Source: Argopecten irradians (Eukaryota; Mollusca; Bivalvia; Pectinida; Pectinidae). Taken from it: a stretch of 64,000 nt of DNA. Of the stretch, positions 3,397 to 55,900 are shown one piece after another. The stretch is from NCBI RefSeq assembly GCF_041381155.1, contig NC_091142.1, positions 31,423,528 through 31,487,527 of the forward strand. The letters run 5' to 3'. The notes under the pieces are model-generated. The model saw only the letters and a list, made by a program, of their open reading frames with translations, did no database searches and had not been told where the DNA came from. Position 1 is the first letter of the stretch. Each line of letters begins with the position of its first letter. The translations under genes and the position numbers were made by a program.

Positions 3397-3566
3397 CAGA
3401 TGACAAAGCAGAGTTGTATGTACATGTAACTTATACGACAGCAGCGACTTTCCATTTTGGCCAAAAGTGATTTATATATGATTATATTAAACCGAATTAT
3501 TTATCGTGCAACATTTCATGTATTTCTTGGATAATTAGAAACTGCGAAAAGCGTGAAAAAGTTGTT

Positions 3567-7604: not shown

Positions 7605-10600
7605 GTATGTTGTATGACCCTGGCCCTGGGGTACTGTACTCGGTCCAGAAAGTTTTGTTAGCTGATAAACCAAAAGTCACACTGTCCTTCACCAATTGTA
7701 TTATAAAGTAACAAAATAAATTAATTGATAGAGGTACCAGATAGAGATAGTGTGTAAGATAAAAATGCCATTTACTCAAAAGGTCATTTTTCTTTATATT
7801 AAGTTAGCTCTAACAGTTACATATTTAACAGGTCGGGGAGAAGTCCTGATTTGGCTATTATAGTGAAATATGACTATGATAGCCAAATATAGCTATATAA
7901 ACAGTGACAAAACGCATTAATTCTTCCAGAAGAGGTATATGTTGCAAAAAGCGAGCGTTTTTGACGCTATGTACGTTATCCTTGTCCTAAGTTGACACGA
8001 TAGCAAAGTTAAAATGAAAAACTCACCTGTGCATTTTTCTGTAAAATCATCGCTTTTCTAGCAGGAAATTGCAATTGTTGTCTGCATTTGCTTGTTAACT
8101 AATTTCTAATAAATTTGAAGGTCGCAATAACTTGCACATGTTCTCCCATATTTGTGCCAATCGAGTCGCAGTTGCTTCAACCGGAACATTCAACATTTTT
8201 TCCCCTATTGACCGGCAGTCGAAAATGTCAATGGGCCGACTTGGGTATGGTCCGAGTTCTCCTTCAGTTAGAGTTACTCCCCTTTGTTCATTCTGGTATT
8301 ATGGCGATGAAAACCAGGTATTTTACAGAAAATTGCACAGGTGAGTTTTTGATATCAACATCGACAGATTCCATGTGTTTTGCCACCGTTTATATAGCTG
8401 TATTTGGCTATTATAGCCGTATTTTACTATAATAGCCAAATCAGGACTTCTCCCCGACCTGTTTAAGAAATGACAAAATATTTAATTTGCTCTTAGATGT
8501 GATCCAGCTAGTTTAGTAAAGCCGTCCAAATCCAAACATTCCTCTGATGAAAAAGATACAAAAGATGCCGAAAATGAACTAAAGAAACGCACACCAACAG
8601 CCACTCGTCATCTGCTGTTAATCCGCCATGGTCAATACAACACCGATGGACAAGAAGACAACCAGCGATACCTCACAGAACTAGGTCAGTGTCATCAAAT
8701 ACCTCAAAGAACTAGGTTAGAGTTATCAAATACCTCACAGAATTAGGTTAGTGTCATCAAATACTTCACAGAACTAGGTTAGTGTCATCAAATACCCCAC
8801 AGAACTAAATACCTCACAGAACTAGGTTAGTGTCATCAAATATCTCATAGAACTAGGTTAGTGTCATCAAATACATCACAGAACTAGGTTAGTGTCTTCA
8901 AATACCTCACAGAACTAGGTTAGTGTCATCAAATATCTCACAGAACTAGGTTAGTGTCATCAAATACATCACAGAACTAGGTTAGTGTCTTCAAATACCT
9001 CACAGAACTAGGTTAGTGTCATCAAATACCTCACAGAACTAGGTTAGTGTCATCAAATACCTCACATAACTAGGTTAGTGTCATCAAATACATCACAGAA
9101 CTAGGTTAGTGTCATCAAATACCTGAAATATATCAATGTGAAATAGTGGAACTTGTATTGAAATCCTTAGGGAATTGAAAAGTACTTCACTATATCATTA
9201 CTAGACCATTGTTGTTCAATATGTTTAATTCCATTTAAGTGCAGGGTATTGTGGTAAGGTACCATGAAGGTCTTTTTAAAAAAACCACCAAAGGAACAAG
9301 TCATAAGGACAGAAATTATTTTTAATGATGTATGGAATGATAACAACAGCAATTTTGATTAAAATTCAGTTTATCTTGAATTCATGTGTTAAATTAAATA
9401 TTTCTTGGGGATAAGGGAATAGTTTTAATTTATGTCTAAAATTTTAAAATATAAACAATTTGTATATATTTTGAACTAAGGGAGGAAACAAGCAGAATAT
9501 ACAGGACAGCGACTAAAAGATCTAGGTCTCTCCTACACCGTTCTCGTATCATCAACCATGACGCGGGCCAAAGAGACTGCTGACATCATTCAGAAGTTCT
9601 TCCCTGACGTGCCACGGAAGGAAACGGACATGCTCCGTGAGGGGGCGCCGATACCTCCGGAACCTCCTGTAGGACACTGGCGCCCAGAAAAAGAGGTAAG
9701 GCCAAATTTAACTACAGAAAATCTCAGCTGAATTGATCATTACCTGTGTTGTATTATGGCTCTTCTATACCCTGAAAAACAGGCTTGACATGAGGAATTA
9801 CACAGTGAATTGTGTGCATCTCAAATCCTGACCCGAGAGTGTGCTTCAGTCACCAAATATTCAAACATTAAAGATGCTCCACCGCTGACGGAGCATAAAC
9901 AATGCTCGTCATTTGAACAATGATTTGTGTTTAATTGTGAATATGTGTCTAATTAACACAAAAAATGATATAAAATAATTTATTTGCTTTTGGTGAATGT
10001 GCCATCATTACTTCATTCCATATACGGATATAGTTCATGATTTTTGATATTAAAATTAGAAGCTCAAACTTTTTAATGGTGGTAATGGAGCAAAATAAGA
10101 AACATTTGTAACTGCATGAAAATACTTATTCATCTTCTCCTTATTTTGATACAGAAAAAATGCCAATTGTCAGTGGTGAAGCATCTTTTAAATACACGTT
10201 TGGATAAATGTTGGAAGGAAAGGATATTTGAAACAACACCATAGTAAGAAAAGAAAAACTAGTAATATATTGTGTACAGGACTACGATCTGAATTTAGAG
10301 GCAGCTAGTGCCTGTGTTCAGAATAAATGATCTGAATATAGAGACAGCTAGTGTCTGTGTTCAAATAAATGATCTGAATATAGAGACAGCTAGTGCCTGT
10401 GTTCAGAATAAATGATCTGAATATAGAGACAGCTAGTGCCTGTGTTCAGAATAAATGATCTGAATATAGAGACAGCTAGTGTCTGTGTTCAGAATAAATG
10501 ATCTGAATAAAGAGACAGCTAGTGTCTGTGTTCAAATAAATGATCTGAATATAGAGACAGCGAGTGCCTGTGTTCAGAATAAATGATCTGAATAAAGAGA

Positions 10601-16600: not shown

Positions 16601-17545
16601 ACCATACCTAGTCCTTTGTATATTGCTTTATGTCAATGAGATTAGGATGGGTTTGATACTGGTCAAAATCTGTCAATATGTATTTGCAAGAGTTACTGAA
16701 CTTTAAAATCGTCAAAACCAATAATTTCTTAGTTTCTGCTCAATAACTTTTGTATTTATTTTCCAATTTCAACCAAATTATGTTTATTTCTATATATCAG
16801 TGAGATCTCGGATGCGTTTGATACTGGTCAAAATACATTAATATTTGCAAGAGTTACGGGACTTGATAACTTCACCTTATTATTAACAATATTTTCAACT
16901 GTAATTAACTATTTTTTGTGATGTTGTAAACTGCTGTGCAGGCGACACATCTACTTCTGTGAAATTCTTGTTTATGCCAACTTGATACAGTGTTTTGTGT
17001 GTTGGCACTATCATATAAGACAGTGGCTTGTGAGAGTTATGTTATTCCTTTATTTTGTGTGTAGCTGTGCTAGATAGTGGTTTGTCATGCTATTAAGTAA
17101 TTTGGGTATTTTTGTGGTTGGTAAGATTAGACATATACGTGTATGTGTATCTATTATCAGATCAGATGTGATTGGACATCTCTCATGTTCTATGACATTC
17201 CTACGATAGCAATCACAGGTCTTCACAAAGGCTTTAAAAATTGTTCATGTAGGAGAAGATTAAACTGAGATATTCTTTTAAAGCTACAGTAACCAAGTCA
17301 TTAACTTACAAGTATGTTTCACAATGAATCATCAATTTTGAAATTAATATTTTACAGTATTATATATATGATATATTTTTTTTAATCTTTCAGGGCTTTA
17401 CAGTTTCCTCCAGAGGGTTGGCTTCGAATCAGCTTAAATCACCGCGAGTATAACGTGGATTACAATTCGCCCCTCTGGCAGAGTATCCATACGTCATCTT
17501 GGCGAGTCGGGCTTTATGCCTGCCGATAAAGTGTCAGTGGTGTGA
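7444..17545 (+). CDS. PGAM5: PGAM5 serine/threonine phosphatase, mitochondrial (5 coding exons)
   Basis: Joined exons 7444-7604, 8497-8684, 9481-9695, 15682-15815 and 17394-17545. PGAM5 is a histidine-phosphatase-fold enzyme that dephosphorylates Ser/Thr in mitochondrial quality-control and cell-death signalling (family knowledge). Seen here: a hydrophobic N-terminal segment at about residues 11-25, the WDxNWD multimerisation motif at 48-53, the catalytic RHG triplet at 97-99 (phospho-acceptor His98), [17 protein letters not shown] and [21 protein letters not shown]. All four junctions are GT-AG and keep frame. As read, the frame closes at 17529 after 277 codons. The last about 34 residues lose homology because of an extra base near 17443; moving one base restores the family C-terminus and a stop at 17543-17545. 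The human protein is 289 residues. The identification is firm. Confidence 0.93.
7829..8461. mobile_element. 633-bp inverted-repeat element in PGAM5 intron 1, TTTAA duplication
   Basis: Left end CAGGTCGGGGAGAAGTCCTG, right end its exact reverse complement, with pairing continuing about 90 bp inward at high identity. The element is flanked by TTTAA at 7824-7828 and 8462-8466, a good target-site duplication. The interior has no long convincing reading frame, so it is non-autonomous. It ends only 30 bp before the exon 2 acceptor. Confidence 0.88.
8497..8684 (+). CDS. PGAM5: PGAM5 exon 2
   Basis: Acceptor TTGCTCTTAG|ATG. Encodes residues 54-116 with the linker rich in Lys and Ser and the catalytic RHG. 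Donor ACTAG|GTCAGT. The last 15 bases of the exon together with the first 16 of the intron form the founding unit of the array that follows. Confidence 0.92.
8670..9125. repeat. 31-bp minisatellite spanning the PGAM5 exon 2 donor
   Basis: The first unit, 8670-8700, is half exon (CCTCACAGAACTAG) and half intron (GTCAGTGTCATCAAAT). About 14 further copies follow with GTTAGT in place of GTCAGT. Each copy therefore repeats the exon end and a usable donor. One unit near 8795-8812 is shortened. Confidence 0.93.
9481..9695 (+). CDS. PGAM5: PGAM5 exon 3
   Basis: Acceptor ATTTTGAACTAAG|GG has a poor pyrimidine tract, yet the frame and homology demand it. Encodes residues 117-187, including [10 protein letters not shown] and LREGAPI, both conserved in the family. 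Donor AAAGAG|GTAAGG, phase 0. Confidence 0.92.
9868..10191. mobile_element. MITE family B, copy 2, in PGAM5 intron 3
   Basis: TTAA at both ends (9868-9871 and 10188-10191). Terminal repeats are AGATGCTCCACCGCTGAC and GTCAGTGGTGAAGCATCT. The interior carries TTTATTTGCTTTTGGTG, shared with copies 3 and 4. Confidence 0.85.
10283..15572. repeat. 42-43-bp minisatellite, about 125 copies, PGAM5 intron 3
   Basis: Units contain ATGATCTGAATATAGAGACA followed by GCTAGTGCCTGTGTTCA and a variable AAATAA, AAAATAA or GAATAA joint, so units alternate between 42 and 43 bp. Tatagag/taaagag, gtgcc/gtgtc and ctag/cgag variants are mixed along the array. Runs of pure 42-bp units keep a frame open with the 14-residue period [14 protein letters not shown]. 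The first unit (about 10283-10325) is the most divergent. It makes PGAM5 intron 3 about 6 kb long. Confidence 0.97.
15682..15815 (+). CDS. PGAM5: PGAM5 exon 4
   Basis: Acceptor CACTTTCAG|CAG is a tandem NAGNAG site, so one Gln may be included or skipped. Encodes residues 188-232 with [11 protein letters not shown] and the second catalytic-site His in CHANVIRY. Donor TGTAG|GTAAGT. Confidence 0.93.
15924..16947. mobile_element. About 1-kb element with 11-bp terminal repeats, PGAM5 intron 4
   Basis: TGTCGCCTGCA at 15924-15934 and TGCAGGCGACA at 16937-16947 are exact reverse complements. Between them lie partly repeated blocks (CGATAACTTTAGTATTTATT and AATAACTTTTGTATTTATTT; GGATGGGTTTGATACTGGTC and GGATGCGTTTGATACTGGTC). 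No coding potential is evident. The short termini make the element call tentative. Confidence 0.5.
17394..17545 (+). CDS. PGAM5: PGAM5 exon 5 (with apparent +1 frameshift)
   Basis: Acceptor TCTTTCAG|GG. Reads [17 protein letters not shown] in frame up to 17442. From there the annotated frame gives unrelated residues and stops at 17527-17529. One base on, from 17444, the frame reads ASITW, then [20 protein letters not shown], and closes with TGA at 17543-17545. That is the expected family C-terminus. Either an assembly or sequencing error (CACC for CAC) or a real allele with a changed tail. No intron boundary nearby explains it. Confidence 0.85.
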
Positions 17546-18395: not shown

Positions 18396-21150
18396 AACCT
18401 GGTAACATCAATGACATCAGTACTGGTAACAACAATGACATCAGTACTGGTCTAAACATATACTGTAACATCAATGACATCAGTAGTACATCAATGACAT
18501 AGGTAACATCAATGACATCAGTACTCGTAACATCAATGACATTTAGTACATTGTAAATCATCATCATACTGACATCAATGACATTAGTACTGGTAACATC
18601 AATGACATAGTACTGAACATCAATGACATCAGTACTGGTAACATCAATGACATTAGTACTGGTAACATCAATGACATCAGTACTCGTAACATCAATGACA
18701 TTAGTACTGTAACATCAATGACATAGTACTGTAACATCAATGACATCAGTACTCGTAACATCAATGACATCAGTACTGGTAACATCAATGACATTAGTAC
18801 TGGTAACATCAATGACATGTACTACTGGTAACATCAATGACATCAGTACTGGTAACATCAATGACATTAGTACTGGTAACATCAATGACATCAGTACTGG
18901 TAACATCAATGACATCAGTACTGGTAACATCAATGACATCAGTACTGGTAACATCAATGACATTAGTACTGGTAACATCAATGACATCAGTACTGGTAAC
19001 AATCAATGACATCAGTACTGGTAACATCATGACATATGACAGACATCAGTACTGGTAACATCAATGACATCAGTACTGGTAACATCAATGACATCAGTAC
19101 TGGTAACATCAATGACATCAGTACTGGTAACATCAATGACATCAGTACTGGTAACATCAATGACATCAGTACTGGTAACATCAATGACATCAGTACTGGT
19201 AACATCAATGACATCAGTACTGGTAACATCAATGACATCAGTACTGGTAACATCAATGACATAGTACTGGTAACATCAATGACATCAGTACTGTGTAACA
19301 TCAATGACATCAGTACTGGTAACATCAATGACATCAGTACTGGTAACATCAATGACATCAGTACTGGTAACATCAATGACATCAGTACTGGTAACATCAA
19401 TGACATCAGTACTGGTAACATCAATGACATCAGTACTGGTAACATCAATGACATTAGTACTGATAACATCAATGACATCAGTACTCGTAACATCAATGAC
19501 ATCAGTACTGGTAACATCAATGACATTAGTACTGGTAACATCAATGACATCAGTACTCGTAACATCAATGACATCAGTACTGGTAACATCAATGACATCA
19601 GTACTGGTAACATCATGGACATCAGTACTGGTAACACATCAATGACATCAGTACAGTACGTACATCAATGACATCAGTACTGGTAACATCAATGGACATC
19701 AGTACTGGTAACATCAATGACATAGTACTGGTAACATCAATGACATCAGTACTGGTAACATCAATGACATCAGTACTGGTAACATCATGGACATCAGTAC
19801 TGGTAACATCATGACATCAGTACTGGTACATCAATGACATAGTATGGTAACATCATGTGACATCAGTACTGGTAACATCATGTACATCAGTACTGGTAAC
19901 ATCATGACATCAGTACTGGTAACATCAATGACATTAGTACTGGTAACATCATGACATCAGTACTGGTAACATCAATGACATCAGTACTGGTAACATCAAT
20001 GACATCAGTACTGGTAACATCAATGACATCAGTACTGGTAACATCAATGACATCAGTACTGGTAACATCAATGACATCAGTACTCGTAACATCAATGACA
20101 TCAGTACTCGTAACATCAATGACATCAGTACTGGTAACATCAATGACATCAGTACTGGTAACATCAATGACATTAGTACTGGTAACATCAATGACATCAG
20201 TACTGGTAACATCAATGACATTAGTACTGGTAACATCAATGACATCAGTACTGGTAACATCAATGACATCAGTAGTACTGGTAACATCAATGACATCAGT
20301 ACTGGTAACATCAATGACATCAGTACTGGTAACATCAATGACATCAGTACTGGTAACATCAATGACATCAGTACTGGTAACATCAATGACATCAGTACTG
20401 GTAACATCAATGACATCAGTACTCGTAACATCAATGACATCAGTACTGGTAATATCATGGACATCAGTACTGGTAACATCAAGGACATCAGTACTGGTAA
20501 CATCAATGACATCAGTACTGGTAACATCAATGACATCAGTACTGGTAACATCATGGACATCAGTACTGGTAACATCATGGACATCAGTACTGGTAACATC
20601 AATGACATCAGTACTGGTAACATCAATGACATCAGTACTGGTAACATCAATGACATCAGTACTGGTAACATCAATGACATCAGTACTGGTAACATCAATG
20701 ACATCAGTACTGGTAACATCAATGACATCAGTACTGGTAACATCAATGACATCAGTACTGGTAACATCAATGACATCAGTACTGGTAACATCAATGACAT
20801 CAGTACTGGTAACATCAATGACATCAGTACTGGTAACATCAATGACATCAGTACTGGTAACATCAATGACATCAGTACTGGTAACATCAATGACATCAGT
20901 ACTGGTAACACCAATGACATCAGTACTGGTAACATCAATGACATCAGTATGGACATCAGACATCAACTGGTAACATCAATGACATCAGTACTGGTAACAC
21001 CAATGACATTGGTACTGGTAACATCAATGACATTGGTACTGGTAACATCAAGGACATCAGTACTGGTATCATCAATGACATCAGTACTGGTAACATCAGT
21101 GACATCAGTACTGGTAACATCAGTGACATCAGCACTAGAAACATCAATGA
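18396..21150. repeat. 24-bp minisatellite, about 110 copies
   Basis: Units contain CAATGACATCAGTACTGGTA, including the 8-bp palindrome CAGTACTG. Identity between neighbours is very high from about 18830 to 20950 and drops at both ends, where length variants (22, 23 bp, ACATCATG) accumulate. The unit is a multiple of three and lacks stops in several frames, so frames of up to 354 codons arise on both strands; these are artefacts. Confidence 0.97.
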
Positions 21151-22290
21151 AATCAAAGACAAGAGAAAACTGGTTGACCATGTTAAGGTATTGTATGAAA
21201 GATAATGAAGTGAATTAGCAATGTTGTCCAAAGGTCAAAGGACACCACAACAGGATGACATCAGCCCAAGTGCACCAAATTACCCGAAGGATCGCCAATA
21301 GTCGGAGCAGCCGAGGAGGTTTTATCCAACAACATTCCAGTGAAGTCCTGTGGAGACTGGTTCCGGCCAGTGACATCTGCACTGCTTGAAATAGGGGCAC
21401 AATTACGGCCTTTCAGGGGCTACTAGAGTTTGTGAAAAGTCCTGTACAGAATCGCGTAGAGCGGAACTTTGGTTTTAAGTTCGGTGTATAGGTGGAATAG
21501 AAGTAAGCATTTTGCTGATAAGTGGAAGTGAAAAACTGTGTTAAATATATAATGTTGAAGCCTCGAGAAACTGCTAATTACTTATTCTTTAATACAAGTG
21601 ATATTTTATTTTACAAAATTCTATATATCTCTTAATGGATTTAGTTATACACTGCCCTCCAAAAGTTGTGTTATAAGTGCATTTTTACAAATATACTTAA
21701 AGTACAGAAATTCCTAAATCTGGTTAGTACAGGGCCTAGTTTCTCGTACATTCCTTTTTAAGGAATTCCTTAACTTAAAATTCTCCATAGGAATGAATTA
21801 CAGATTTTAAGAATGGCTCCTTAACTTGAGTTTTTCCTTTCCTGTGGGGAAATTTAAGTTAAGGGAATGTATATGAAACTGGGTTCAGGCATCAGTAAAT
21901 ATTATTTATTTACTTATCTATCTTCTCTTACTCATAAATTGCTTTTAAATCCTTAAAATCTGTTTTTGGAGATAAATTGACAGGAAATTTTAACATACAT
22001 AGGAAGGGACTGTAAAGTTATGTAAAGCATAGCTAGTGGATATTGATTTTACAAAGCAGTCTAGGATATTGATTCATTTATTTTCCAGTTACCCTTAATT
22101 AAATACCTTTTATCGCATAGTAACCAAAAAAAAATTGAAGGATTTCCATAAAAGTCGAAATAACTGGAAATGTCATTGCTAAAAGCCATCCAGGGGTAAA
22201 AGCGATGTTTGATTCCTCGATACTACTATATTGCAACACTAACTGTAAGTGTTTCTCTACTTTTGCCTTCTAACAAACCATGACAACACT
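21151..22290. other. Unannotated intergenic DNA
   Basis: No supported gene. Short imperfect inverted pieces such as TTAAGGAATTCCTTAA around 21760-21775 are visible. Confidence 0.45.
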
Positions 22291-24230
22291 GCCCAGTAAT
22301 ATTGGTCACCATTCAATCCCAAGCTATGCTATCGCACATGTTACCATTGTATGAAAGTTGAAAAAATTTCGTTGATGTATTCTCAAGTTATCATTCGAAA
22401 ACTAAAATTTGTGAAACAATCTATTTTTAGTAGCAGTGATCTTTGTAGTTGACCTTTCGACCCCTAATTCAATCCCAAGCTATGCTATCGACTATGGTAT
22501 CATTGTATGAAAGTTGAACAAATTTTGTTGATGTGTTCTCAAGTTATCATTCGGAAACTAAAATTTGTGAAACAATCTATTCTTAGTAACAGCGACCTAT
22601 GTAGCTAAACGGATGACCCAAAATTCAATTCCAAACTGTATTTTTAGCCCACCATCATCAGATGGTGGGCTATTCAAATCGCCTTTCGTCCGTGGTCCGT
22701 GGTCCGTCCGTCCTTACGTCTGTCCGTTAACAATTCTTGTTACCGCTATTTTCAGAAAGTACCAAAGAGATCTTTTTCAAATGTCATATGTAGGTTCCCC
22801 TAGGGCCCTTGTTGTTCAACAAGATAGGCCATCTTGGATTTTGACAGTTAAAGTTTGTTACCGCTATTTCTCGGAAAGTACTGAAGGGATCTTTCTCAAA
22901 TTCCATGTGTAGATTTTTCTAGAGGTCTTGTTATGCATATTGCATTTTGGGACCAATCGGTCAACAAGATGGCCGCCAGGCAGCCATCTTGGATTTTGAT
23001 AGTTAAAGATTGTTACCGCTATTCCGCGGAAAGTACTGAAGGAATCTTACTCAAATTTCTTATGTAGGTTCCCCTAGGACCCTAGTTGTGCATATTGCAT
23101 TTTGGGACCGATCGGTCAACAAGATGGCCGACAGGCGGCCATCTTGGATTTTGATATTTACAGATTGTCACCACTATTTCCCAGAAAGTACTGAAGGGAT
23201 CTTTCTCAAATTTTATATGTAGGTTCCCCTAGGACCCTAGTTGTGCATATAGCATTTTTGGACCGATCAGTCAACAAGATGGCCGACAGGCAGCCATCTT
23301 GGATTTTGATATTTAAAGATTGCTACCGCTATTTCCCAGAAAGAACTGAAGGGATCTTTCTCAAATTTCATATGTAGGTTCCCCTAAGGCCCTAGTTGTG
23401 CATGTTGCATTTTGGGAGTAATCGGTCAACAAGATGGCCGACAAGCGGCCATCTCGTATTTTGACAGTTAAAGTTTGTTACCGCTATTTCTCGGAAAGTA
23501 CTTAAGGGATCTTTCTCAAATTTCATATGTAGGTCCCTCTAGGGCCCTAGTTGTGCATATTGTGTCTTGGGACCAATTGGTCAACAAAATGGCCGCCTGG
23601 CAGCCATCTTGGATTTTGATAGTTAAAGTTTGTTATCGCTATTTCTCAAAATGTGCTGAAGGGATCTCTCTCAAATTTTATATGTAGGCTTCCCTAGGGC
23701 CCTAGTTGTGCATATTGCATTTTGTAACTGGTCGGTCAACAAGATGGCTGAACGGCCGCCATCTTGGATTTCATTGTTGAAGTTTGTTACCACTATTTCT
23801 TAGAAAGTACTATAGCGATCTGTCTCAAATTTTATATGTAGTGTGTTTGAAAAAGTTTGAAAAGCAGGGAAAAGATCCCTCTTTCCATTGTCAGACATAG
23901 ATAATTCTTTGGTGGGCGCAAAGATCCCTTTGGTATCCCTTGTCTCATATGCTACGATTGTGTGAAATTTGATCGAAATCCGTTGATATTTTCTCAAGTA
24001 ATCTTCTGAAAACGACAATATTTTAAGCAACATATTATTAGTAACAGTGACCTTTGTAGTCGACATTTTGACCCCAAATTTAATCCAAAGGTATGCTACC
24101 TCCTGAGTTACCATTGTATGAAGTTTGAATAAATTCCGTTGATGTGTTCTCAAGTTATCATCCGGAAACTAGAGAAAAGACAGACGGTATCAAACACTAT
24201 AGTCCCCTCCGGTTCCACCAACGAAAAGAT
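22291..24230. repeat. Interspersed repeat block with about 180-bp internal tandem units
   Basis: From 22646 a hairpin (AGCCCACCATCATCAGATGGTGGGCT spread over 22646-22671) leads into tandem units of about 180 bp. Each holds CAACAAGATGGCCG, GGCCATCTTGGATTTTGA and TTTGTTACCGCTATTTC. Two related direct copies of another block (AATCCCAAGCTATGCTATCG) sit at about 22315 and 22470, with degraded relatives near 24080. I recall such repeats from bivalve genomes; the family name is not known to me. Confidence 0.75.
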
Positions 24231-33289: not shown

Positions 33290-33435
33290 AGAATTCAGCA
33301 TGGTCCCCACCTCCAGGAAGCAGGTAGCAGTCACAATGCTGTTGTGCGGTGTGTTATTCACTAGAGCTGCGGTTTCAATAAACCTTTGCTCCTGTAGTAA
33401 CACTTTTCGATCTGAACACCCCGCAGGTTTATGTG
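33290..33435 (+). CDS. Secreted-protein gene exon 2 (start codon, signal peptide)
   Basis: Acceptor CAACACAG|AGAATTCAGC, then ATG at 33300 in a favourable context (AGCATGG). Donor TGTG|GTATGT at 33435; an alternative GCAG|GTTTAT nine bases earlier keeps the same phase. The frame stays open past the donor for four repeat units, to 33749, so intron retention would add 28-residue repeats. Confidence 0.72.
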
Positions 33436-36400
33436 GTATGTATACGGTATCTAGTGTAATACTCTATGTTGGGGTATGTAATTATAGATTTATAACGAAA
33501 CATTTAACGGGTTTATGTGGTATGTATACGGTATCTAGTGTAATACTCTATGTTGGGGTATGTAATTATAAATTTATAACGAAACATTTAACGGGTTTAT
33601 GTGGTGTGTATACGGTATCTTGTGTAATACTCTATGTTGGGGTATGTAATTATAGGTTTATAACTAAACATTTAACGGGTTTATGTGATGTGTATACGGT
33701 ATCTAGTGTAAGCCACTCTATGTTGGGAGATGTAATTATAAGTTTATAACGAAACATTTGACAGGTTTATGTGGTATGTATACGGTATCTAGTGTAAGCC
33801 ACTCTATGTTGGGAGATGTAATTATAAGTTTATAACTAAACATTTGACAGGTTTATGTGGTATGAATACGGTATCTAGTGTAAGCCACTCTATGTTGGGG
33901 TATGTAATTATAGGTTTATAACGCATCATTTGACAGGTTTATGTGGTATGTATACGGTATCTAGTGTAAGCCACTCTATGTTGGGAGATGTAATTATAAG
34001 TTTATAACTAAACATTTGACAGGTTTATGTGGTATGTATACGGTATCTAGTGTAAGCCACTCTATGTTGGGAGATGTAATTATAAGTTTATAACTAAACA
34101 TTTGACAGGTTTATGTGGTATGTATACGGTATCTAGTGTAAGCCACTCTATGTTGGGAGATGTAATTATAAGTTTATAACTAAACATTTGACAGGTTTAT
34201 GTGATGTGTATACGGTATCTAGTGTAAGCCACTCTATGTTGGGAGATGTAATTATAAGTTTATAACTAAACATTTGACAGGTTTATGTGGTATGTATACG
34301 GTATCTAGTGTAAGCCACTCTATGTTGGGAGATGTAGTTATAAGTTTATAACTAAACATTTGACAGGTGTATGTGGTATGTATACGGTATCTTGTGTAAG
34401 ACTCTATGTAGGGGTATGTAATTATAAGTTTATAACAAAACATTTGACAGGTGTATGCGATATGTTTTCGGTTTTTAGTGTAAGTCACTCTACGTTGGGG
34501 TATGTAATTCATAACGGAACCTTCGATTTCGGGTATGAGATCTCTCGCGAACGTTAAGTGATTTATAGTATACTAAATACAAAGTTTAATTTTAACATTA
34601 AAGCCCCGAGTCTTTCCGTGTCGGGCATCAAAATAAAGATTGTTTTGTAAAACACATAACGAGTAATCTCTCTATTCTGCAGCACTGTTATTAAAGCAAA
34701 TAATTTTTCACATCCCGTAATATCAGAACCGAATGCTTTGTCGCCCAGAAAACATTCATTCAATTCAATTAAGATGCACGAGCATGTTTTACTACGAAGA
34801 CAAAATATTAGAGCACCGTTAAGATACAGAGGATCTTACATGGGTAATTTTATATTATGAAATTTATTAAACAAGTTCAATAATTTGATTTGTCACGAGC
34901 CTTTAGAGAGCAATTTTGTTTTACTCAATAAATTAAACCTTTTTCTATTGGCAAAGCTTTGTTCGTGAAAACAACCGTGCTGTTATTTTCAAAATTATCT
35001 TTCGTTAAAGATTAAATCCCTGAAGTTATTTGACGTGTTGTTACCCTTTGTTTTATTGTTCTATTATTATAAAGACTCAGATGTTTCGATCGACACTCAG
35101 CGATGCGATGGTTGCGGCGAGAATAGTGAGTTTAAAACTATTGTTTGTTTTGCTTTCTTATGTTGTTTTGTTATCGAATATAGTACATAACCGCAATAGA
35201 ATATCCAAGTACCAAAAATTCTGGTTTTAGGTAGGCCTAGTGTTATTCCAAAATCATTATAAGTCATATGTTAATAATATTTGCAATATAACATAATGAC
35301 GTCACAAACAACCACGTCACGGGAAAGCTACATAATGACGTCACAAACAACTAAATCACCGGAGAGCTACATAATGACGTCACAAACAACAAAGTCACGG
35401 AGCGAGGAGTTACTTCTGAATAAAGAAAAGAGTACAGGTCATTTAAGGATGTATTCTTCTGAAGTTTCAGTCCCGTTGAAGTCTCGTTTCGACAAAGATC
35501 AAAGAAATTATGAGATTTTCTTATATATTTTATCAATATCTGTAGCAAGTTGCCAGATGCAAATTTTGTCAAAAAATTACATTTCTATTTTTAGTAGATT
35601 TTTTTTATACCGGGATTTCAAGAAATGGCCCATTTGGCGGCCATTTTGAAATTGTGTCTTTTTCTTCTATGAGTAGAGCCATAGTTAAACCACTTTTTAC
35701 TGAAATTGTTTTTACTTAAATCATCAATGCACCAGCATTTTTAGCTGTATCGAGCTAATTTTTGCTGTTAATCTTTACTAGGTTCGTGGTTTTTAAAATA
35801 TTGAGCATTATTGCGTGAAGTGATACGCTTTTGTCACGTTATTTTTACATTTAATGGTAATTTGAGCACTTTTATTTTTACTCTAAAATATTGAAACATA
35901 ACACATATTCAAATGGGGCAAAAAAGTAAGCACACTGACCCCCCATTTTTCTCCCTAATTTAGAAAGAACAACCCATTCCCTATTGATATGCAAAATATT
36001 AACAAAAGTTTAATACCACAACTGTTTCTATAAAGGGTTAAATTTGGCAAAAATGGCTGAAAATGGTGTATTTTGTAGCTCAAAATTAAGGGGTAGGAGT
36101 AGCATATGTTGTTATTCCGAGTCTTATTAATCATAACTTGTATATTTTTAAAGAAGACTACGGGAAAATAAATTCTTCAAACTTCCATACATATGGCTTT
36201 AAACTCTTGTGTATATGGTCAAAACGGCAAAAATTAAAAAAAAATCCAATATTTTGTCAACTTGGTATCTTTGAGTGACAATAGCTCAAAAACAAGCACA
36301 CCGACATATGTTTTTCCTCCATTTTCTTGTATGGTATGAACTCCTATTTCCAAAAATCTATATGAGAAAAAAAGTTTAATACAAGAAAATTTTGACTTCT

Positions 36401-44489: not shown

Positions 44490-45750
44490 TACAATGCAAT
44501 GGCCATAACCGCGTACATTTGTCCATGGCCATAACCTCGTACATTTGTCCATGGCCATAACCTCGTACATTTGTCCATGGCCATAACCTCGTACATTTGT
44601 CCATGGCCATAACCTCGTACATTTGTCCATGGCCATAACCTCGTACATTTGTCCATGGCCATAACCTCGTACATTTGTCCATGGCCATAACCTCGTACAT
44701 TTGTCCATGGCCATAACCTCGTACATTTGTCCATGGCCATAACCTCGTACATATTTGTCCATGGCCATAACCTCGTACATTTGTCCATGGCCATAACCTC
44801 GTACATTTGTCCATGGCCCGTAATTTCATGCCATAACCCGTACATTTGTCCATGGCCATAACCGCGTACATTTGTCCATGGCCATAACCGCGTACATTTG
44901 TCCATGGCCATAACCGCGTACATTTGTCCATGGCCATAACCTCGTACATTTGTCCATGGCCATAACCGCGTACATTTGTCCATGGCCATAACCGCGTACA
45001 TTTGTCCATGGCCATAACCTCGTACATTTGTCCATGGCCATAACCTCGTACATTTGTCCATGGCCATAACCTCGTACATTTGTCCATGGCCATAACCTCG
45101 TACATTTGTCCATGGCCATAACCTCGTACATTTGTCCATGGCCATAACCTCGTACATTTGTCCATGGCCATAACCTCGTACATTTGTCCATGGCCATAAC
45201 CCGTACATTTGTCCATGGCCATAACCCGTACATTTGTCCATGGCCATACCGTACATTGTCCATGGCGTACATTTGTCCATGGCCATAACCCGTACATTTG
45301 TCCATGGCCATTACATTGTATGCCTAACCTCGTACATTTGTCCATGGCCATAACCTTAATTTCCTAACCTACATTTGTACCCTGGCCATAACCCGTACAT
45401 TTGTCCATGGCCATAACCGCGTACATTTGTCCATGGCCATAACCTCGTACATTTGTCCATGGCCATAACCTCGTACATTTGTCCATGGCCTAACCCGTAC
45501 ATTTGTCCATGGCCATAACCTCGTACATTTGTCCATGGCCATAACCTCGTACATTTGTCCATGGCCATAACCTCGTACATTTGTCCATGGCCATAACCTC
45601 GTACATTTGTCCATGGCCATAACCGCGTACATTTGTCCATGGCCATAACCTCGTACATTTGTCCATGGCCATAACCGCGTACATTTGTCCATGGCCATAA
45701 CCGCGTACATTTGTCCATGGCCATAACCTCGTACATTTGTCCATGGCCAG
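44490..45750. repeat. 26-bp minisatellite, about 46 copies
   Basis: Units contain CCATGGCCATAACCTCGTAC and ATTTGT. CCATGG and ATGGCCAT are overlapping palindromes. CTCG and CGCG variants alternate. Around 44810-44840 and 45240-45370 units are broken by short deletions and by a shared insert-like TTAATTTCCTAACCT piece. Long antisense frames rich in MDKCTRLWPWT are artefacts. Confidence 0.97.
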
Positions 45751-46782
45751 TAACATTAATATTCCTAACCTAACTCATTAAAACTTGAACATTTATAATG
45801 AACTAGAATTGGAATAGTTTACATGTGTCTTCACCGGTGAATGGGTTAAGGAAATTTCTTAGCATTACTACGAAATAACCATATGTTGTGAAACTTTAAC
45901 TCCTGCAATGCTTAGGTACTTTCTTAAAAAAATTATGGAATTATGATGAAACTGGAGTAATATTTTTGCATATCACCAGCTTTTATATGATCATCATAAC
46001 GTTATGATTTAGATAATGATGTGGCATCAAGATTAAAAGATTTGTTCGATATGATTAAATGATTTTTCACTAGGTGTCTTAAAATGTATATAAAGAACTG
46101 GTATTTGTTTTAACTGAAAACTTATAAACATGTGACATTGTCAAGGTAACATTAAAACATTAAGCTATAATTTAATAAGAATTTTTATAGTTGGGAAAAT
46201 TAGGATTGTTTTTCGTCTATAAATGAAAAACAAAATTGCACCTTGGATTATGGCACATAATGGCGGCTAAAGAATTTAAGATTCCTCGAGAAACAATATT
46301 GGAAGAGCAAGAGGAGTCATAATGTGGTGATAGTGATAGAGAAACTCAATTTATGTTTCTATATCAAGTTATCTACTTAGGAAGAATATCTTACATTTTG
46401 TCATATTTAATGAAATGAAGTTCTCTAGGAAGAATATTCTGTCATATTCATAGAAATGATCTTATATATTCAGCAATTTTCCATATCATGACTTTAAATC
46501 AAATTATCAGGTAGGTTCTGGTACACACATGTTGTGTCAGGACAGAAAATTTATAAATGTATCTTATGGAATCAATTTGCCTTATTAAAGAGAATTAATA
46601 CAGGTTAGCTATAGAGTTGTGTTGAGGTTAGAGACAAAATTTCAAAGTGAAAATCATAGCAATTGTAAGAGAGAATCTTCATTTCAAATCTTCTTCAATT
46701 AATAATGATAAAACATTTTCAATGAGAATAACAAAATAATTTTAGACAGTCGATCAGAACATAACTTTGAATACAGAGGAAA
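45751..46782. other. Region between the 26-bp array and AKAP10
   Basis: A+T-rich. It includes the probable distal 3' UTR or 3' flank of AKAP10 (minus strand). No confident polyadenylation signal was chosen. Confidence 0.4.
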
Positions 46783-46984: not shown

Positions 46985-49900
46985 CTAGAAAAAAAGAGAA
47001 ATTATAAAACATTGGTTATGCATATTGTACATAACTGAATCGAATGGTATTTAAGAAATTTGAGAAAAATATTTTCTTTATGGAGAAAAAGAAATGTCAA
47101 AATTTTACACATAAAACATGATTATTAAAAGAGAGACATTACAAAGTATGTCCCTAACATCAGAAAGGTTACTGAACAATGACTGAACACAATACCCGGG
47201 TATGTGAACTACCTCTTAATATATACAAAACAATTGCTGAACATCAAGAAGAAACAGAAATATATAATGTAGATATATTCAATATGATTTAACACCATTA
47301 GTGTCAAAAATAAGAATGATTTTGAATTTTATCACCTTTTCTTTTGCTTTTTTTCTCTTAAAAAGTCCAGTGCCTGCAACAAGGAAATACAAAAAATTTA
47401 CAAACTACATGTACAAATACAAAAAATAAACATACTACATATACATATACAAGAAATTAATATACTACAGATACAAAAATTAACATACTACATGTACAAA
47501 TACAAAAAAAAAACATACTATGTACAAAGTTTTTGAAATTTTCGTATATAAAGTCAAAACAAGGAGCCACAAAGCATGGCATTATCCCCCATGCCCTGCA
47601 GTAAGTATAAAAACTCAAATACACCAATTTCGAAGTAATAATTATTCAAGTATAGCTTTAAATGCATGCGATTATTGTAAAACTGAAAAAAGATAACAGC
47701 AGGTAACAAAAAGAAACAGTAAAACAAGTTTCATGGAGCTGCATTTAACAGTTTTGGAGTTGTAGCCCGAAAACAAAATGAAACTGTAATTTTGTATTTT
47801 TGACTGAGTTTCCATGGTAACAGAAAAAATTCCAAAAATTGATGGTCCACAACAGCAAAAGGCACAACTTAGGCACTTGTCTGATATATATATTCAGAAA
47901 GTTTCATGGAGCTGCCCTGAACGGTTTTTGAGTTATAGCCCGGAAAAGAATTTCGGACGGACAGACCGAGGGAGACTAAATTAAATTTAATATCCACCGT
48001 TTAATCGTTAACAACATACCTTTTACTTTCTCCTGGTCAGGGTTGGGGTCAAACTCTGACACAAACTCCCCAAATGTGTCAACCTTTCCTAAACTCATCC
48101 TACAATGACGTGATAGAAAATTCTACATCATTACTGAACTTAAACGCATTTTGTTAAAGGGGAAAGTCATAATTCTAAACATAGCAAATCATTTCAATAA
48201 TATCAGAATAAAGTAAAAACTAATTACTTTGGACTGTGTCTTTTCCATAAAAGGTCAGGGTTCAGAAGCCCAGGGTCAAGGTTCATGGCAGTGTCAAGCT
48301 TAGTCATGCTGTGACGTAGATGGCTGGTGTCCCTCGCTAAGTAGGTATTTTTGGACGATCGACTCTCACTCCCCGCGCTGTGACTACTGTGTTCAGAGGA
48401 GGCATCGCTAGCTGAAAAACAATACAGCTTGAAATCACAATTATTTTGTTATGCTTATTGGCAAGGATTTTAACATCAGGTATCTGGAAATCTTGATGCT
48501 AAACACTTCCATATAGAGTAAAACAATTTATAAAGAACCGCTAACAAAGTCAAGGTTATAACAGTACTATTCATTCTCTGGTCATTTAAGCTGATTGTAA
48601 TATGTATACATTTAACAAACTATGCTTGTAACAATTAATTTTGCTGGTACCCAGAGGTTCGGTATAACAGTACATCTCTATATCACATTCAGTTTTCAAA
48701 AGCAAATGTTTAGCATAATTTGGCACTGAACTTTTATTGTTGGACTTGCCTTTATCCTATGTAAACAGAAGTGGTGGAATGTATCCAATATATTACACAT
48801 CTTTTTTCTGTTCTGAATTATGTTTTTATACTGACCAGTACGTTTACGTTGCCGGGGAGGGTAATTGGCCGTTTCTACTGTACTGACCAGCTCAGACAGG
48901 TACTTGTAGTAGACATCACTGTGAAGGTATGCTGAGAAGTAGGTCTGGAAACAAATTAAACACAAAAAACTACAAAACAACTTCTATATGGCAATGCTCA
49001 ATATTACATCCTGCCTTTATGTTAAAGCTGACAATGCAAGTTAAAAAGCATGCATTTGAAATAAATTTTTTTTTTTTTTTTTGAAAATTGTTTCTGAGAC
49101 ATTCCCCAGTTATGACAGTGTCGTATCCAAGGAAGTGGCAGCCATTTTTATTTTTGCTTTGCTTAGTTACCTTCACTGGCCAACCCCCTATATAAAGCAC
49201 GGGACTAGACACACGTACGTCATTTCAAACATAACTTGTCTCGTATAGACATGCCGCGATATTGCAAATAACAATGTCAAACTGAAAATAAACACTGCAC
49301 TCACCTGACAAGGTTTCATTGAAATAATACATGAATGTGTTGTCAGCTAAATTCCAAATAATATCCAAAACGAGCTAATGAAACACTTCAATATGCACTA
49401 GGTTTTACACGTACACCGACACGTGTATGTACTTGGTACAGTAGTTGTCGCTTGTTCAGGACAGGTAGTCACGTGCACATGGCCAGTCGAGTACATCGGT
49501 TACGATAACATCCGTGGAGATATGTGGACGGTTAATCATTTGGATTTCTATTCATTTGTGTGGAAATTTTATTTTGACAAACATGTAAATGACAGCTTAG
49601 AGGATTTGATGTATTTTGTTGCCAAACAAGCCCCATATACCTTTATAGGTAAGTGTTTTGTTTACGTAATAGTAGGTGATACACAGTGGACAACTGCCAG
49701 GTGTGTATGTACGTGTATAGACTGATCGCACGTGTGTCGATTCACGAGCTTTATATAGGGGTCGGTGAAAGCATCGGATACAGACAGAGCGAAAAACAAA
49801 AATGGCTGACCTCGATAGGGGGTTGTCTCATAAACGATTCTTGAAATACAAGTGTGCTTAATTTCTTTAATCTCAATTTAAAGTTTTTTAACTTGCATTG

Positions 49901-52900
49901 TCACTTTAACAATCATTTAAATCAGAGGTTGACTTTAGTTAACATCATATTAAATCAGAGAGGTTGACTTTATGTTAACAATCATATTTAAATCAGAGAG
50001 GTTGACTTTATGTTAACAATCATATTTAAATCAGAGAGGTTGACTTTATGTTAACAATCATATTTAAATCAGAGAGATTGAGACTCAGAGCTTGGTTTTC
50101 AGGAACTCAGATTCACATTCAATACCATATTTCCATCCAAGCTAAAAAGTGATGGAGATAAATCAGATAGTGTAAGACTTAACTTCACATTTCTCCGATT
50201 ATATCTTTTCCCCCATGCCATAAAACAATGATTTAATATAAACATAAAGCAGTCTCCAAATTAAGCTTATCTTACTGATTTTTAGAATTAAGAAAGTATG
50301 AAATCCAGGATTTGGTTTATTACAGAATAATCATTTACTTTTCATTATCAAATTAGTGAACTGGAGATGATTGGCTTTAGCTGTTGTGTATATAGACAGA
50401 CCTGTCTATATGGACCATCCAAGGGACAATACAGGGTTGTTATAGCCAAGTGCTTTTTATACACAAGTTAAATTATGATGAAATTGACAATTTAGGATAC
50501 TAAGAAAGTAGTCTCGTTAAGCAGGTGGTCTTTATACAGAGGTGGTTAAGGCAGGTTTGACTATATAACATTACCTTTTCTATTGCTTTACCTGTATATT
50601 ACATTACCTTTTCTATTGTTTTAAGGACTTTATGTCTATATTACCTTTTCTATTTTTCAAGGACTATATTTCTATATTACCTTTTTTATTGTTTTAAGGA
50701 CTATATTTCTATATTGCCTTTTCTATTGTTTTAAGGACTATATTTCTATATTACCTTTTCTATTTTTTAAGGACTGTATTTCTATATCACCTTTTCTATT
50801 GTTTTAAGGACAATATTTCTATATTACCTTTTCTATTTTTTAAGGACAGTATATCTGTATTACCTATTCTATTGTTTAAGGACTGTATTTCTGTATTACC
50901 TTTTCAATTGTTTTAAAGACCATATTTCTGTATTACCTTTTCTATTGTTTTAAGGACTATATTTCTGTATTACCTTTTCTATTGTTTTAAGGACTATATT
51001 TCTGTATTACCTTTTCAATTGTTTTAAGGACCATATTTCTGTATTACCTTTTTTATTGTTTTAAGGACCATATTCGTATTTTACCTTTTCAATTGTTTTA
51101 AGGACCATATTTCTGTATTACCTTTTTTATTCTTTTAAGGACCATATTCATATCTTACCTTTTCTATTGTTTTAAGGACAGTATTTCTATATTACCATTT
51201 CTATTGTTTTAAGGAATGTATTTCTATTTTATTTTTTGTATTGTTTAAAGGACCATGTTTCTATATTACATTTTCTATTTTCAAGGACTATATTTCTATA
51301 TTACCTTTTCTATTGTTTTAAAGACTATATTTCTATATTATTTTTTGTATTGTTTAAGGACTGTATTTCTATATTACCTTTTCTATTTTTAAGGACTATA
51401 TTTCTATATCACCTTTTCTATTGTTTTAAGGACTATATTTCTATATTGCCTTTTCTATTGTTTTAAGGACTATATTTCTATATTACATTTTCTATTGCTT
51501 TAAGGACTATATTTCTATATTGCCTTTTCTATTGTTTTAAGGACTATATTTCTATATTGCCTTTTCTATTGTTTTAAGGACTATATTTCTATATTACCTT
51601 TTCTATTGTTTTAAGGACTATATTTCTATATTGCCTTTTCTATTGTTTTAAGGACTATATTTCTATATTACATTTTCTATTGCTTTAAGGACTGTATTTC
51701 TATATTACCTTTTCTATTGTTTTAAGGACTATATTTCTGGTTTTGGCAAAACAATCTGGAAGAGGACCTTCTTCACGACATATATTTTCCTCAACTTCAA
51801 ATCGTATCTTATCATCAAACCCCAGCGGATCTGTAGCCTGTAAAGAAAAATATCTGAAAGAAATGAGAAAAAAAATTAATTCTTTTGTTGTTGTTTCAAA
51901 ATATCTTCAGCCAGGAAGATACCCTATAAGGATAATATATTTGTGTGTAAATTTCAATTCTATTTCAACCTTGTAAGAGAAAATTAAACATATCACCATA
52001 GTGCACATTACTGTCATATAACAGCTCATTTAACCACAAACTTATAATTTTACTTAGATGGAAAATAATTGGGTAGAAAAACATTTATAAGAGTTATTTC
52101 CTTTTTTTTGGAGATTTAATGGGTAATCAAAATAGCGTTGTTAATTAAAAGCGTGTCACACCATTATAGGATACGTACTTGTCGTACAGCACCATGGCAT
52201 CTCTCTGAGCCTCCATGCCGTCGTATTGACCTTCACAGGATGTGAGATGCTGCTGGAAGTTGTCTGTAGCCAACAGGAACTGGAGAAAATGGCTGCCTCC
52301 CTCCTGTTCTAGGTACTCCATAAAATAGAAGAGAGCGCCCTCATTGTATAACACGTCGGCGAGGTGGATCTGTGTACTAGTCAGCATGTTGATCTGATGC
52401 ATGTAGTAATACTCACTCACAAGGAATTCGGCGTAAAACCTTCAATATAAATATATAAGTAAAACTCACAAGAAAGTCGGGGTTAAACCTTCAATATAAA
52501 TATATAAGTAAAACTCACAAGAAAGTCGGGGTTAAACCTTCAATATAAATATATAAGTAAAACTCACAAGGAAGTCGGGATAAAACCTTCAATATAAATA
52601 TATAAGTAAAACTCACAAGGAAGTCTGGGTAAAACCTTCAATATAAATTTATAAGTATAACTCACTCACAAGGAAGTCGGGGTAAAACCTTCCATATAAA
52701 TATAGAAGTATAACTCACAAGGAAGTCGGGGTAAAACCTTCAATATAAATATATAAGTCTGGGTAAAACCTTCAATATAAATAAAAAGTATAACTCACAA
52801 GGAAGTCGGGGTAAAACCTTCAATATAAATATATAAGTAAAACTCACAAGAAAGTCGGGGTAAAACCTTCAATATAAATATATAAGTAAAACTCACAAGG

Positions 52901-55900
52901 AAGTCGGGGTAAAACCTTCAATATAAATATATAAGTAAAACTCACAAGGAAGTCGGGGTAAAACCTTCAATATAAATATATAAGTAAACTCACTCACAAG
53001 GAAGTCGGGGTAAAACCTTCAATATAAATATATAAGTATAACTCACTCACAAGGAAGTCGGGGTAAAACCTTCAATATAAATATATAAGTATAACTCACA
53101 AGGAAGTCGGGGTAAAACCTTCAATATAAATATATAAGTATAACTCACTCACAAGGAAGTCGGGGTAAAACCTTCAATATAAATATACAAGTATAACTCA
53201 CTCACAAGGAAGTCGGGGTAAAACCTTCAATATAAATATATAAGTATAACTCACTCACAAGGAAGTCGGGGTAAAACCTTCAATATAATTACACAAGTAA
53301 GTAATACTCACTCAAAAGGAAGTCAGGGTAAAAAATTCAATACAATTACACAGCACTATAAAATATTGTAAGGGTACCATTATCTGGGTATTCAACAAGA
53401 GGCCAAAAGGGCCTTAACGATCATCTGGTTACATTGGCAATAGTAAAATTAATTATATATGGTGTCACTTTGTCAGGACCATGTCAGGATCATTTTCAAT
53501 CTCTTTCAACAAATTTTATTTCAAACAAGAGGCCTAAGAGCCTTAACATATAGGAAATTAATTAGATATAGTGTCATGGTAGCCATCTTCGATTTGGGAT
53601 CAACCAGAGATGTAACAATACTTTGTCGGGACATGTCAGGATCATTTCATGCAAGTTTCAACCAAATCACACTGGTAGAACTTGAGAAGAAGTTCAAAAT
53701 GTGTTTTCAAGATGGTGGCTGTAGCGGCCATCTTGGATTTTGGATCGATCCGAAAAATAACAACACTTTGTCGGGATCATGTTAGGATCATTTCATGCAA
53801 GTTTCAGCCAAATCGCACCAGTTGAACTTGAGAAGAAGTTCAAAATGCGTTTTCAAGATGGTGGCTGTGGTGGCCATCTTGGATTTCAGATCGACCCGAA
53901 AAATAACAACACTTTGTCGGGACCTTGTCAGGATCATTTTTCTGCAAGTTTCAGCTAAATCGCACCGGTAGAACTTGAGGAGAAGTTCAAAATGTGTTTT
54001 CAAGATGGCGGCTGTGGCAGCCATCTTGGATTTCCGATCAGCCCGAAAAATATCAACACTTTGTCAGGACCATGTCAGGATAATTTCATGCAAGTTTCAG
54101 GTAAAACGCACTGGTTGAACTTGAGAAGAAGTTCAAAATATGTTTTCAAGTTGCGGCTGTGTCGGCCATCTTGGATTTTGGATCGACCCGAAAAATAACA
54201 ACACTTGGTCTGGACCATGTCAGGATCATTTCATGTAAGTTTCAGCTAAATTGCACTGGTAGAACTTGAGATGAAGATCAAAATATGAAAAGTTAACGCA
54301 CGGTGCACAGCGACGGACGAAACATGACGACTATAGGTCATCCTGACCCTTTGGGTCAGATGACCTAAAAATTGTAAAATATGAAAAGGAAGAGGAAATG
54401 ATGAACTTTAATGCCTTTATTTTAGCTACAGAATGGTAAATGTACCATAATTTGGGCAATGTATTCCCATTAAAACACACTGTAGAATATGAAGAGATCA
54501 CCAGCAAAGGATGAATTTGAACTCGGTTATTTAATTTCCTATGAGCTATAGAAATGTGTAGATTAATAGAATCTTTCCCTGCCTAGAGGGTGTGACAACA
54601 AAATCACAACACGAGGGGTGATTCATGAAAGTCTAACCCAAGGCTTGCCAAGGGTTGGACATTCAGGAATTCCCCCGAGGGTTGTGATTTTGTTGTCACA
54701 GCCTCATAGGTAGGGAATGATTACATACCAAAGAAAAAGAGGAGATAATAGCCTAAACAGAAGTATTTTCACCACCACATGAACATGGTGCCATCGCCTG
54801 CATGTCAATATTGATGACATCATCGCCAATGCACGCTACAGTCACACTGCATGAAGTCATGACCTAACGTAATTGTTTTCAGGTTCAAAAGGTTAGCGTG
54901 CACAATCTGTCATTCCCTAGCTATAGGGTTGACAGAGAAATCTCCCACAGCTAAAACCCATGACAAATCAGTGAATGGTGGAAGAATGTCTGGACTATCT
55001 CTGTTATCAGCACAAACAGCAGGTCTCTTGTTACCCAAATAGGCTTCTCTTATGGAAATGATGGAGTTCTCCAAAATGATCTTATACTAGCTTCAATCTG
55101 GAATCAAACACAGGTCTTTAGTGTGAAAAACTATGGCTCTACTGAATGCTCCACCAGCTGGGTGATGTAGACTGTATCTAACACTATGTACTACACACAA
55201 TGACCCCCTCCTTTTATTGTATGAAAGTTCAACTGTGTAAGCAGACAGCTTACCTCTCAGCAGCTTGATACCACAGGTTATAATAAAATAACTTACTCTT
55301 TCTCCATTTTCTTAAAAACAAATTCCTGACAGGAGGAGAAGCACTGTGGATCAACTTGGCCGTCTTCTCTACAAATCTTGTCTGTAAGAAATTAAAAAGA
55401 TAACATCAATTTACAATGACATAAGGGACGACATATCAGAATTAGGATAATGGTCCTACACCTCAGACATTAAATATTGTCTACACTCTATTTATTTAAC
55501 TTATTCACCCCTGAAGACACATTTAGGTTCTTCTAAATCAAAGACTAGATCAGTCCACAATGTAATTTTAGAGGTTAATGAATTAACTCGTGAAAAATAA
55601 TCTTTACAAAGTCGTACACATGGACTTAATTAACTTGAACATGGCATCACCCGGTAAAACTGGGAAGTTTTAGTATCTGAGTTAACTGTGCTTAAATATG
55701 GTGACAACAAAATAATTTGAATCAAACAGGGTCTATAATTTAAATGAATCCAAGCTTACACTGTTCAACTGGGACTCATTCTCTGTGGTCTACTTACGTA
55801 TGGTTTCATTGCGTAATTCGTCCGGAGCACCAATGGGATCTGTTGCGTCATGTGACAGATATTTTTGAAAAATTTTAACAGCATCCCTCTCTATACCTTT

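Follow-up and report, generated by a model that had tools for sequence, protein, structure and literature searches.

Minisatellites that copy a splice junction form a class of repeat that is known yet has seldom been described; it was named in lancelets. The 'mirage' minisatellites of amphioxus are reported from Adh3, the globin genes BflGb6 and BflGb9, PGBD5 and troponin C (PMC3087553, PMC3902484), and their units range in length from 10 to 160 bp (PMC3087553 section 16). Mirages are also described as unstable in copy number between alleles or in soma, with diverged copies at the edges and homogenised ones inside. The window analysed here, a 64,000-nucleotide stretch of contig NC_091142.1 of the bivalve Argopecten irradians with a GC content of 34.6%, contains 17 tandem arrays with units of at least 16 bp and at least three copies, covering 33% of its length. 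Three of the four arrays claimed to lie at splice junctions have units that span an exon-intron boundary, as in mirages; their unit lengths of 31, 37 and 49 bp are within the mirage range, and just as the authentic exon-side splice site of a mirage stays usable, here the exon-adjacent site is, at the level of sequence, the only one of those tested that keeps the frame. The three arrays are probably mirage-type minisatellites that began with a tandem duplication across an exon-intron boundary, grew on the intron side and were tolerated.

The smallest of the three units is found at the donor of PGAM5 exon 2:

8497..8684, plus strand: PGAM5 exon 2 (open spliced frame; aligns without gaps to 5muf_A across exons 2 and 3)
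8668..9124, plus strand: 31-bp minisatellite at the PGAM5 exon 2 donor (TRF rows 8668-8807 and 8807-9124; unit alignment)
9481..9695, plus strand: PGAM5 exon 3, with acceptor CTAAG|GG (open frame; 5muf_A alignment)

The alignment of the exon 2|3 join to the solved PGAM5 structure 5muf_A has an E value of 4.3e-74. By unit alignment, each 31-bp unit consists of 17 nucleotides of exon 2 (8668-8684) together with the donor, and the array comprises 14 full copies, of which copy 1 is the exon edge itself, and one partial copy, with 13 AG|GT decoys. Exon 2 reads CG-ATACCT-CACAG, the intron beyond the array reads AA-ATACCT-GAAAT and the units read AA-ATACCT-CACAG, a breakpoint pattern as expected of a duplication between 6-bp direct repeats. 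There is a frame break in the last PGAM5 exon, and local sequence errors may exist.

The other two arrays are in AKAP10, which is transcribed from the opposite strand:

55297..55381, minus strand: AKAP10 exon E2, which lies upstream and joins to the exon F acceptor, ending GA|GTAAGT (open spliced frame)
52415..53342, minus strand: 49-bp minisatellite, with some longer copies, at the AKAP10 exon F acceptor (TRF rows 52415-52758 and 52755-53342; unit alignment)
52179..52439, minus strand: AKAP10 exon F, second RGS domain (open frame, Pfam, relatives)
51709..51853, minus strand: AKAP10 exon G, second RGS domain (open frame, Pfam, relatives; edges the same in read-through relatives)
50570..51738, minus strand: 37-bp minisatellite at the AKAP10 exon G donor (TRF; unit alignment)
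48842..48944, minus strand: AKAP10 exon H, which follows the intron holding the exon G array and has an ambiguous donor (open frame, relatives)

The spliced frame E2|F|G|H, in which exon E2 sets the phase of exon F, is open, matches the Pfam RGS domain (1.4e-19) and aligns to AKAP10 relatives, with joins free of gaps against those that are better covered. The 37-bp unit of the exon G array consists of the last 30 nucleotides of exon G (51709-51738) followed by GTAATAT, and is present in about 32 copies (31.9 by TRF). The most diverged copy, with nine changes, is at the far end, although the gradient of divergence, computed for exon G only, is not significant (rho 0.29, P 0.11). The eight-nucleotide sequence ATATAGTC is present both in the exon and in the far intron flank, and could be a leftover partial copy. 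When part of this array was folded as RNA, no excess of structure was found (z 0.13).

The exon G donor appears to be old, its position being as expected of one common to other animals: in seven of the ten distant matches inspected in full, the AKAP10 homology ends at this place. Those seven resemble unspliced genomic frames, with (I/L)EK or IQR followed by V where the homology ends, and they amount to about six independent matches, P0016 and P0017 being near-identical. Since the position is common to other animals, the array would have grown at a pre-existing intron, and a gain of this intron by duplication of AGGT, the parallel drawn in the original prediction, has to be rejected for the exon G donor.

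The 49-bp unit of the exon F array consists of the end of the intron, GAAG|G, and then at least the first 25 nucleotides of exon F; there are about 18 copies, including 17 decoy GAAG|G acceptors. Inspection of the breakpoint showed that the join of this array carries a small insertion. Its full copies have P-D codons at a spot where A-E is now read in the exon, a hint that the array is older than these exon changes. Part of the exon F array folded as RNA gave z -2.38, a value inflated by inner repeats.

A fourth array was said to straddle the exon 2 donor of a 'secreted gene':

33300..33426, plus strand: putative signal-peptide exon of the 'secreted gene' (open frame; without homology support)
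33424..34514, plus strand: 86-bp array adjoining the putative exon (TRF; unit similarity about 40 nucleotides into the exon)

The similarity of the 86-bp units extends upstream into the putative exon with P 0.001-0.04 over the six lengths tried (15-60 nucleotides), and the best result is 21 of 40 positions identical, compared with a random mean of 11.6. The putative exon has no Pfam match above the cut-off and no homologue at E 0.001, and therefore the status of this array as a junction array is unproven; a scan of positions 24000-48000 for an insulin-like cysteine pattern gave just two chance-like matches. Of the four junction-straddling arrays originally predicted, frames and homology thus bear out those at the PGAM5 exon 2 donor, the AKAP10 exon G donor and the exon F acceptor.

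In each of these three, the exonic part of the unit encodes conserved protein, which identifies the exon as the source of the array. The presence of exon sequence in the units shows that a short segment spanning the exon-intron boundary was duplicated in tandem. Replication slippage or end-joining repair, acting between short direct repeats close to the junction, probably caused this; one of the three arrays (PGAM5, 6 bp) has clean breakpoint microhomology. The copies have the pattern of an array that grew and was partly homogenised on the intron side, as presumably happened next. Such growth would have been tolerated because the copy beside the body of the exon still supplies the correct splice site, whereas copies spreading into the exon would disrupt the protein. 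Each of the 52 array decoys tested, namely those array copies that bear the searched pattern (13 in PGAM5, 22 at exon G, 17 at exon F), leads to a premature stop, and the exon-adjacent site keeps an open frame at all three junctions when the sequence is translated. Because the decoys would give premature stops if used, splicing must presumably favour the exon-adjacent site for the most part, as RT-PCR is reported to indicate in amphioxus, and the decoy sites would be passengers.

A different view of the decoys is that they are selected for dosage control, diverting pre-mRNA to premature-stop transcripts in a fraction set by copy number. The stops produced by every decoy tested would suit such a role, as would the scores given by a weight matrix to the exon G array, where 13 decoy donors equal the authentic donor and seven exceed it (the highest 10.1 versus 5.1), and repeat number is reported to affect splicing in the intron 6 VNTR of human TERT. 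With these scores, simple tolerance of the exon G array is not guaranteed. Against selection, GT is kept in 24 of the 31 decoy copies of exon G and is conserved no more than other columns: 7 of the 86 differences fall in the decoy GT columns versus 4.6 expected (P 0.23), variation that is no more than chance and is consistent with neutrality. By the same matrix, none of the 13 PGAM5 decoys reaches the score of the authentic donor. Dosage control is accordingly considered quite improbable, and it is more improbable still that the exon edges have been wrongly placed or the arrays mis-assembled; the frame break in PGAM5 and the fourth gene's want of a homologue could be taken as signs of such an artefact, but the spliced frames are open, the joins of PGAM5 exon 2|3 and, against the better-covered relatives, of AKAP10 are free of gaps, and the differences among array copies are structured.

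Three straddling arrays in one window exceed the number expected from uniform seeding. This gives some scope for a junction bias, by which transcription-linked breaks, AG|GT, stalled spliceosomes or R-loops would favour the start of duplications at exon-intron boundaries. Three straddling seeds were found versus 0.31 expected in the whole window (P for three or more, 0.0028), 0.52 expected within the PGAM5 and AKAP10 genes (P = 0.0075) and 0.28 expected within these two genes without a 146-bp array (P = 0.0019), the two-gene test depending on edges set by eye in six of its 15 exon models. The array at 33424-34514 may be a fourth. These values are nominal: the excess depends on the null, is post hoc and comes from one window picked after the arrays had been seen, and plain coverage gives no excess, with local copies at 3 of 18 exon edges versus 96 of 300 random positions. 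In a window of which a third is arrays, the statement that the excess is far beyond chance was too strong; the three seeds are nominally unusual (P 0.002-0.008). AGGT is present in 9 of all 17 arrays versus 4.6 expected (nominal P 0.015), ranking fourth of 136 four-mers, but in the 14 arrays other than those at confirmed junctions it is present in 6 versus 3.9 expected (P = 0.16), and it is internal to the units while the breakpoints fall elsewhere. The proposal that AG|GT junctions are tandemly copied holds in that the units of three of the four arrays were copied from true splice junctions, whereas AGGT as the copied target was rejected. A junction bias that is strong in this genome is unlikely, and it is similarly doubtful that in this lineage splice junctions are favoured genome-wide as starting points of tandem duplication, leaving many genes with tens of near-identical decoys for the spliceosome to ignore. 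Were the latter true, the lineage would hold a standing natural experiment in splice-site choice and a stock of raw material for new exons and introns.

Each of three other known systems resembles these arrays in part. In human segmentally duplicated genes, minisatellite-type repeats are likewise located at exon-intron boundaries (PMC2812944), but there, in recent paralogues, they change splicing or create introns, whereas neither a new intron nor a changed protein was seen here. Intron gain by AGGT also involves tandem duplication of a segment that holds AGGT (PMC3443670), but in that case the segment is exonic and a new intron arises, whereas the segment copied in this window already lay across a junction, intron sequence is inside the units of all three confirmed arrays so that the duplicated segment was not wholly exonic, and no new intron was found. 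The TERT intron 6 VNTR, with a 38-bp unit, is an intronic minisatellite of a coding gene with similar unit length and copy number; unlike the present arrays, it is not reported to contain the splice sites. Among the papers listed on bivalve tandem repeats at junctions, none describes a junction-spanning array of a bivalve in its title or abstract opening. If such arrays are common in this genome, they offer a clean natural test of how one splice site is chosen over as many as about 31 near-identical neighbours. Older states of exon edges may also survive in them, as the P-D copies of exon F versus its A-E may do, and they may show how duplications accumulate at a junction while no new intron results. 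Compared with the six and three units in the two haplotypes of amphioxus BflGb6, the exon G array is long at about 32 copies, and three mirage-type arrays occur here in two genes of one window, as seen in one haplotype. With these arrays, a phenomenon on record mainly from amphioxus would be extended to the genome of another animal.

Three minisatellites that span exon-intron junctions are well supported in the window, one at the exon 2 donor of PGAM5 and two in AKAP10, at the exon G donor and the exon F acceptor. The original prediction had counted four in three genes; the fourth adjoins a putative exon that has neither a homologue nor a Pfam match above cut-off. The features are as follows (copy numbers from TRF).

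7444-7604, 8497-8684, 9481-9695, 15682-15815 and 17394 onward, + strand: PGAM5 exons, from the spliced frame
8668-8807 (4.5 copies) and 8807-9124 (10.3 copies), + strand: PGAM5 array, 31-bp unit
33424-34514: 86-bp array adjoining a putative signal-peptide exon
50570-51738 (31.9 copies), - strand: exon G donor array, 37-bp unit
52415-52758 (6.9 copies) and 52755-53342 (11.4 copies), - strand: exon F acceptor array, 49-bp unit
55297-55381 (E2), 52179-52439 (F), 51709-51853 (G) and 48842-48944 (H), - strand: AKAP10 exons, in an open spliced frame

The spliced PGAM5 exons form a single open frame until a frame break within the last exon, and the product aligns with solved PGAM5 (5muf_A, E 4.3e-74) without a gap at the exon 2/3 join. 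The break (one base, after LRISLNH; 17394-17530, + strand), beyond which the conserved C-terminus resumes in another frame, may be an assembly error, an allele or decay. The spliced E2-F-G-H product of AKAP10 matches the RGS domain of Pfam (1.4e-19), and its joins were checked by alignment to seven relatives (P0005-P0010 and P0015). The E2/F join is gapless against P0005 and P0006, the two that cover both flanks well; P0007 has four additional residues there, in a stretch that differs from the other relatives, P0010 coverage reaches just three residues upstream of the join, P0008 and P0009 fall short, and P0015 is poorly aligned. The G/H join is gapless against five relatives (P0006-P0010), with a one-residue gap in P0015; P0005, which diverges past the junction, is uninformative. 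The exon H donor is ambiguous, which does not affect the array.

When each array was aligned to its unit, the exon-adjacent copy proved to be the exon edge itself at all three junctions; the exonic part of the units codes for protein that is conserved in other animals, so the exon is the source and the array the copy. The PGAM5 unit includes the final 17 nt of exon 2 and the donor. ATACCT stands in the exon as CG-ATACCT-CACAG, in the intron past the array as AA-ATACCT-GAAAT, and in the units as AA-ATACCT-CACAG, the expected product of a duplication between 6-bp direct repeats, which may have seeded the array. In the exon G unit, GTAATAT follows the terminal 30 nt of the exon; an 8-nt ATATAGTC is common to the exon and the far flank, where it may be a partial copy. 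The exon F unit comprises the intron end, the GAAG/G acceptor and at least the first 25 nt of exon F, and a small insertion is present at the array join. Full copies encode P-D whereas the exon itself now encodes A-E, which suggests, on this sequence comparison, that the array retains an earlier state of the exon edge. About 20 nt past the acceptor the exon F units (52415-53342, - strand) carry a donor-like GTGAGT, with 17 CTTGTGAGT in the array, and the unit thus looks like a tiny exon.

The age of the exon G donor was assessed from ten distant AKAP10 matches examined full-length, out of 17 matches. Seven (P0011, P0014, P0016-P0019 and P0021, with P0016 and P0017 near-identical) resemble genomic read-through: their homology ends at the last residue of exon G and is followed by V, the reading of a GT donor. 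P0012 and P0013 continue directly into exon H sequence, and P0020 diverges earlier. The shared stop indicates that the donor is old and common to other animals; the array grew later, at an already existing donor, and intron gain at exon G is rejected on account of the common donor position.

Decoy sites, the splice-site copies inside the arrays, were evaluated by translating the spliced message with each array copy that matched the search pattern. A stop resulted from 13 of 13 PGAM5 donors, 22 of 22 exon G donors, 17 of 17 acceptors upstream of exon F and one chance GAAGG within exon F; with the exon-adjacent site the frame is open at all three junctions. On an approximate donor matrix, none of the 13 PGAM5 decoys reaches the score of the authentic donor, and among exon G decoys 13 equal the authentic score and seven exceed it, the highest being AAGGTAAGA at 51159 (- strand; 10.1 versus 5.1 for the authentic AAGGTAATA). 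GT is kept in 24 of 31 exon G decoys, and the GT columns account for 7 of the 86 differences, against an expected 4.6 (P 0.23); retention no different from other columns fits neutral copies.

For chance expectation, 17 arrays (unit at least 16 bp, at least three copies; 33% of the window) were set against 27 junctions from 15 PGAM5 and AKAP10 exons, nine defined by splicing and six in AKAP10 with edges set by eye. Random seeds would straddle 0.31 junctions window-wide (P for three or more, 0.0028) and 0.52 inside the two genes (P 0.0075); leaving out the 146-bp array lowers the second figure to 0.28 (P 0.0019). The prediction that straddling is far beyond chance goes too far: the excess is nominal in this seed test, and a coverage test requiring at least two local copies gave none (3 of 18 exon edges versus 96 of 300 random positions); the seed test is preferred because arrays are kept out of exons, and both concern a single window noticed on account of the pattern itself. 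A possible genome-wide bias of arrays toward junctions is the point of interest. The proposed process of copying AG/GT junctions is not supported: AGGT lies within units and the breakpoints lie elsewhere, and although 9 of the 17 units contain AGGT, against an expected 4.6 (nominal P 0.015), the 14 arrays away from confirmed junctions show no significant enrichment (6 versus 3.9 expected, P 0.16). The predicted mechanism as a whole is unproven.

At the 86-bp array, resemblance to the unit extends upstream into the putative exon (P 0.001-0.04 over six lengths tried; at best 21 of 40 identical versus a random mean of 11.6), so the array may be a fourth junction-spanning case or just have a diverged first copy. 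Among other repeats, the 42-bp array at 2512-3398 (- strand; 21 copies, no indels) is open over 290 codons with a 14-residue repeat and is possibly coding, although arrays 1-783 and 3568-4173 are likewise open throughout. Long open frames in the 24-bp array (18399-21155, + strand; 403 of 919 codons) and the 26-bp array (44499-45754, - strand; 288 of 418) may be due to chance. The 155-bp (22828-23841) and 146-bp (53577-54284) tandem repeats have a GCCATCTTGGATTT core in common and look like a single dispersed family.

Titles and abstract openings among the literature matches listed include no junction-spanning array in a bivalve, which does not prove absence. Passages of PMC2812944 describe human duplicated genes with variable repeats at exon-intron boundaries, and those of PMC3443670 and PMC2395259 an AGGT duplication model and introns made by repeat expansion in Cryptococcus, respectively. 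The phenomenon itself is already known from the mirages of amphioxus, tandem repeats across exon-intron boundaries: portions of PMC3087553 report them in globins, cite Adh3 and other loci, give RT-PCR suggesting that regular splicing is undisturbed, and propose them as a source of intron gain, and part of PMC3902484 adds PGBD5 and cites troponin C. The three supported arrays add new examples.
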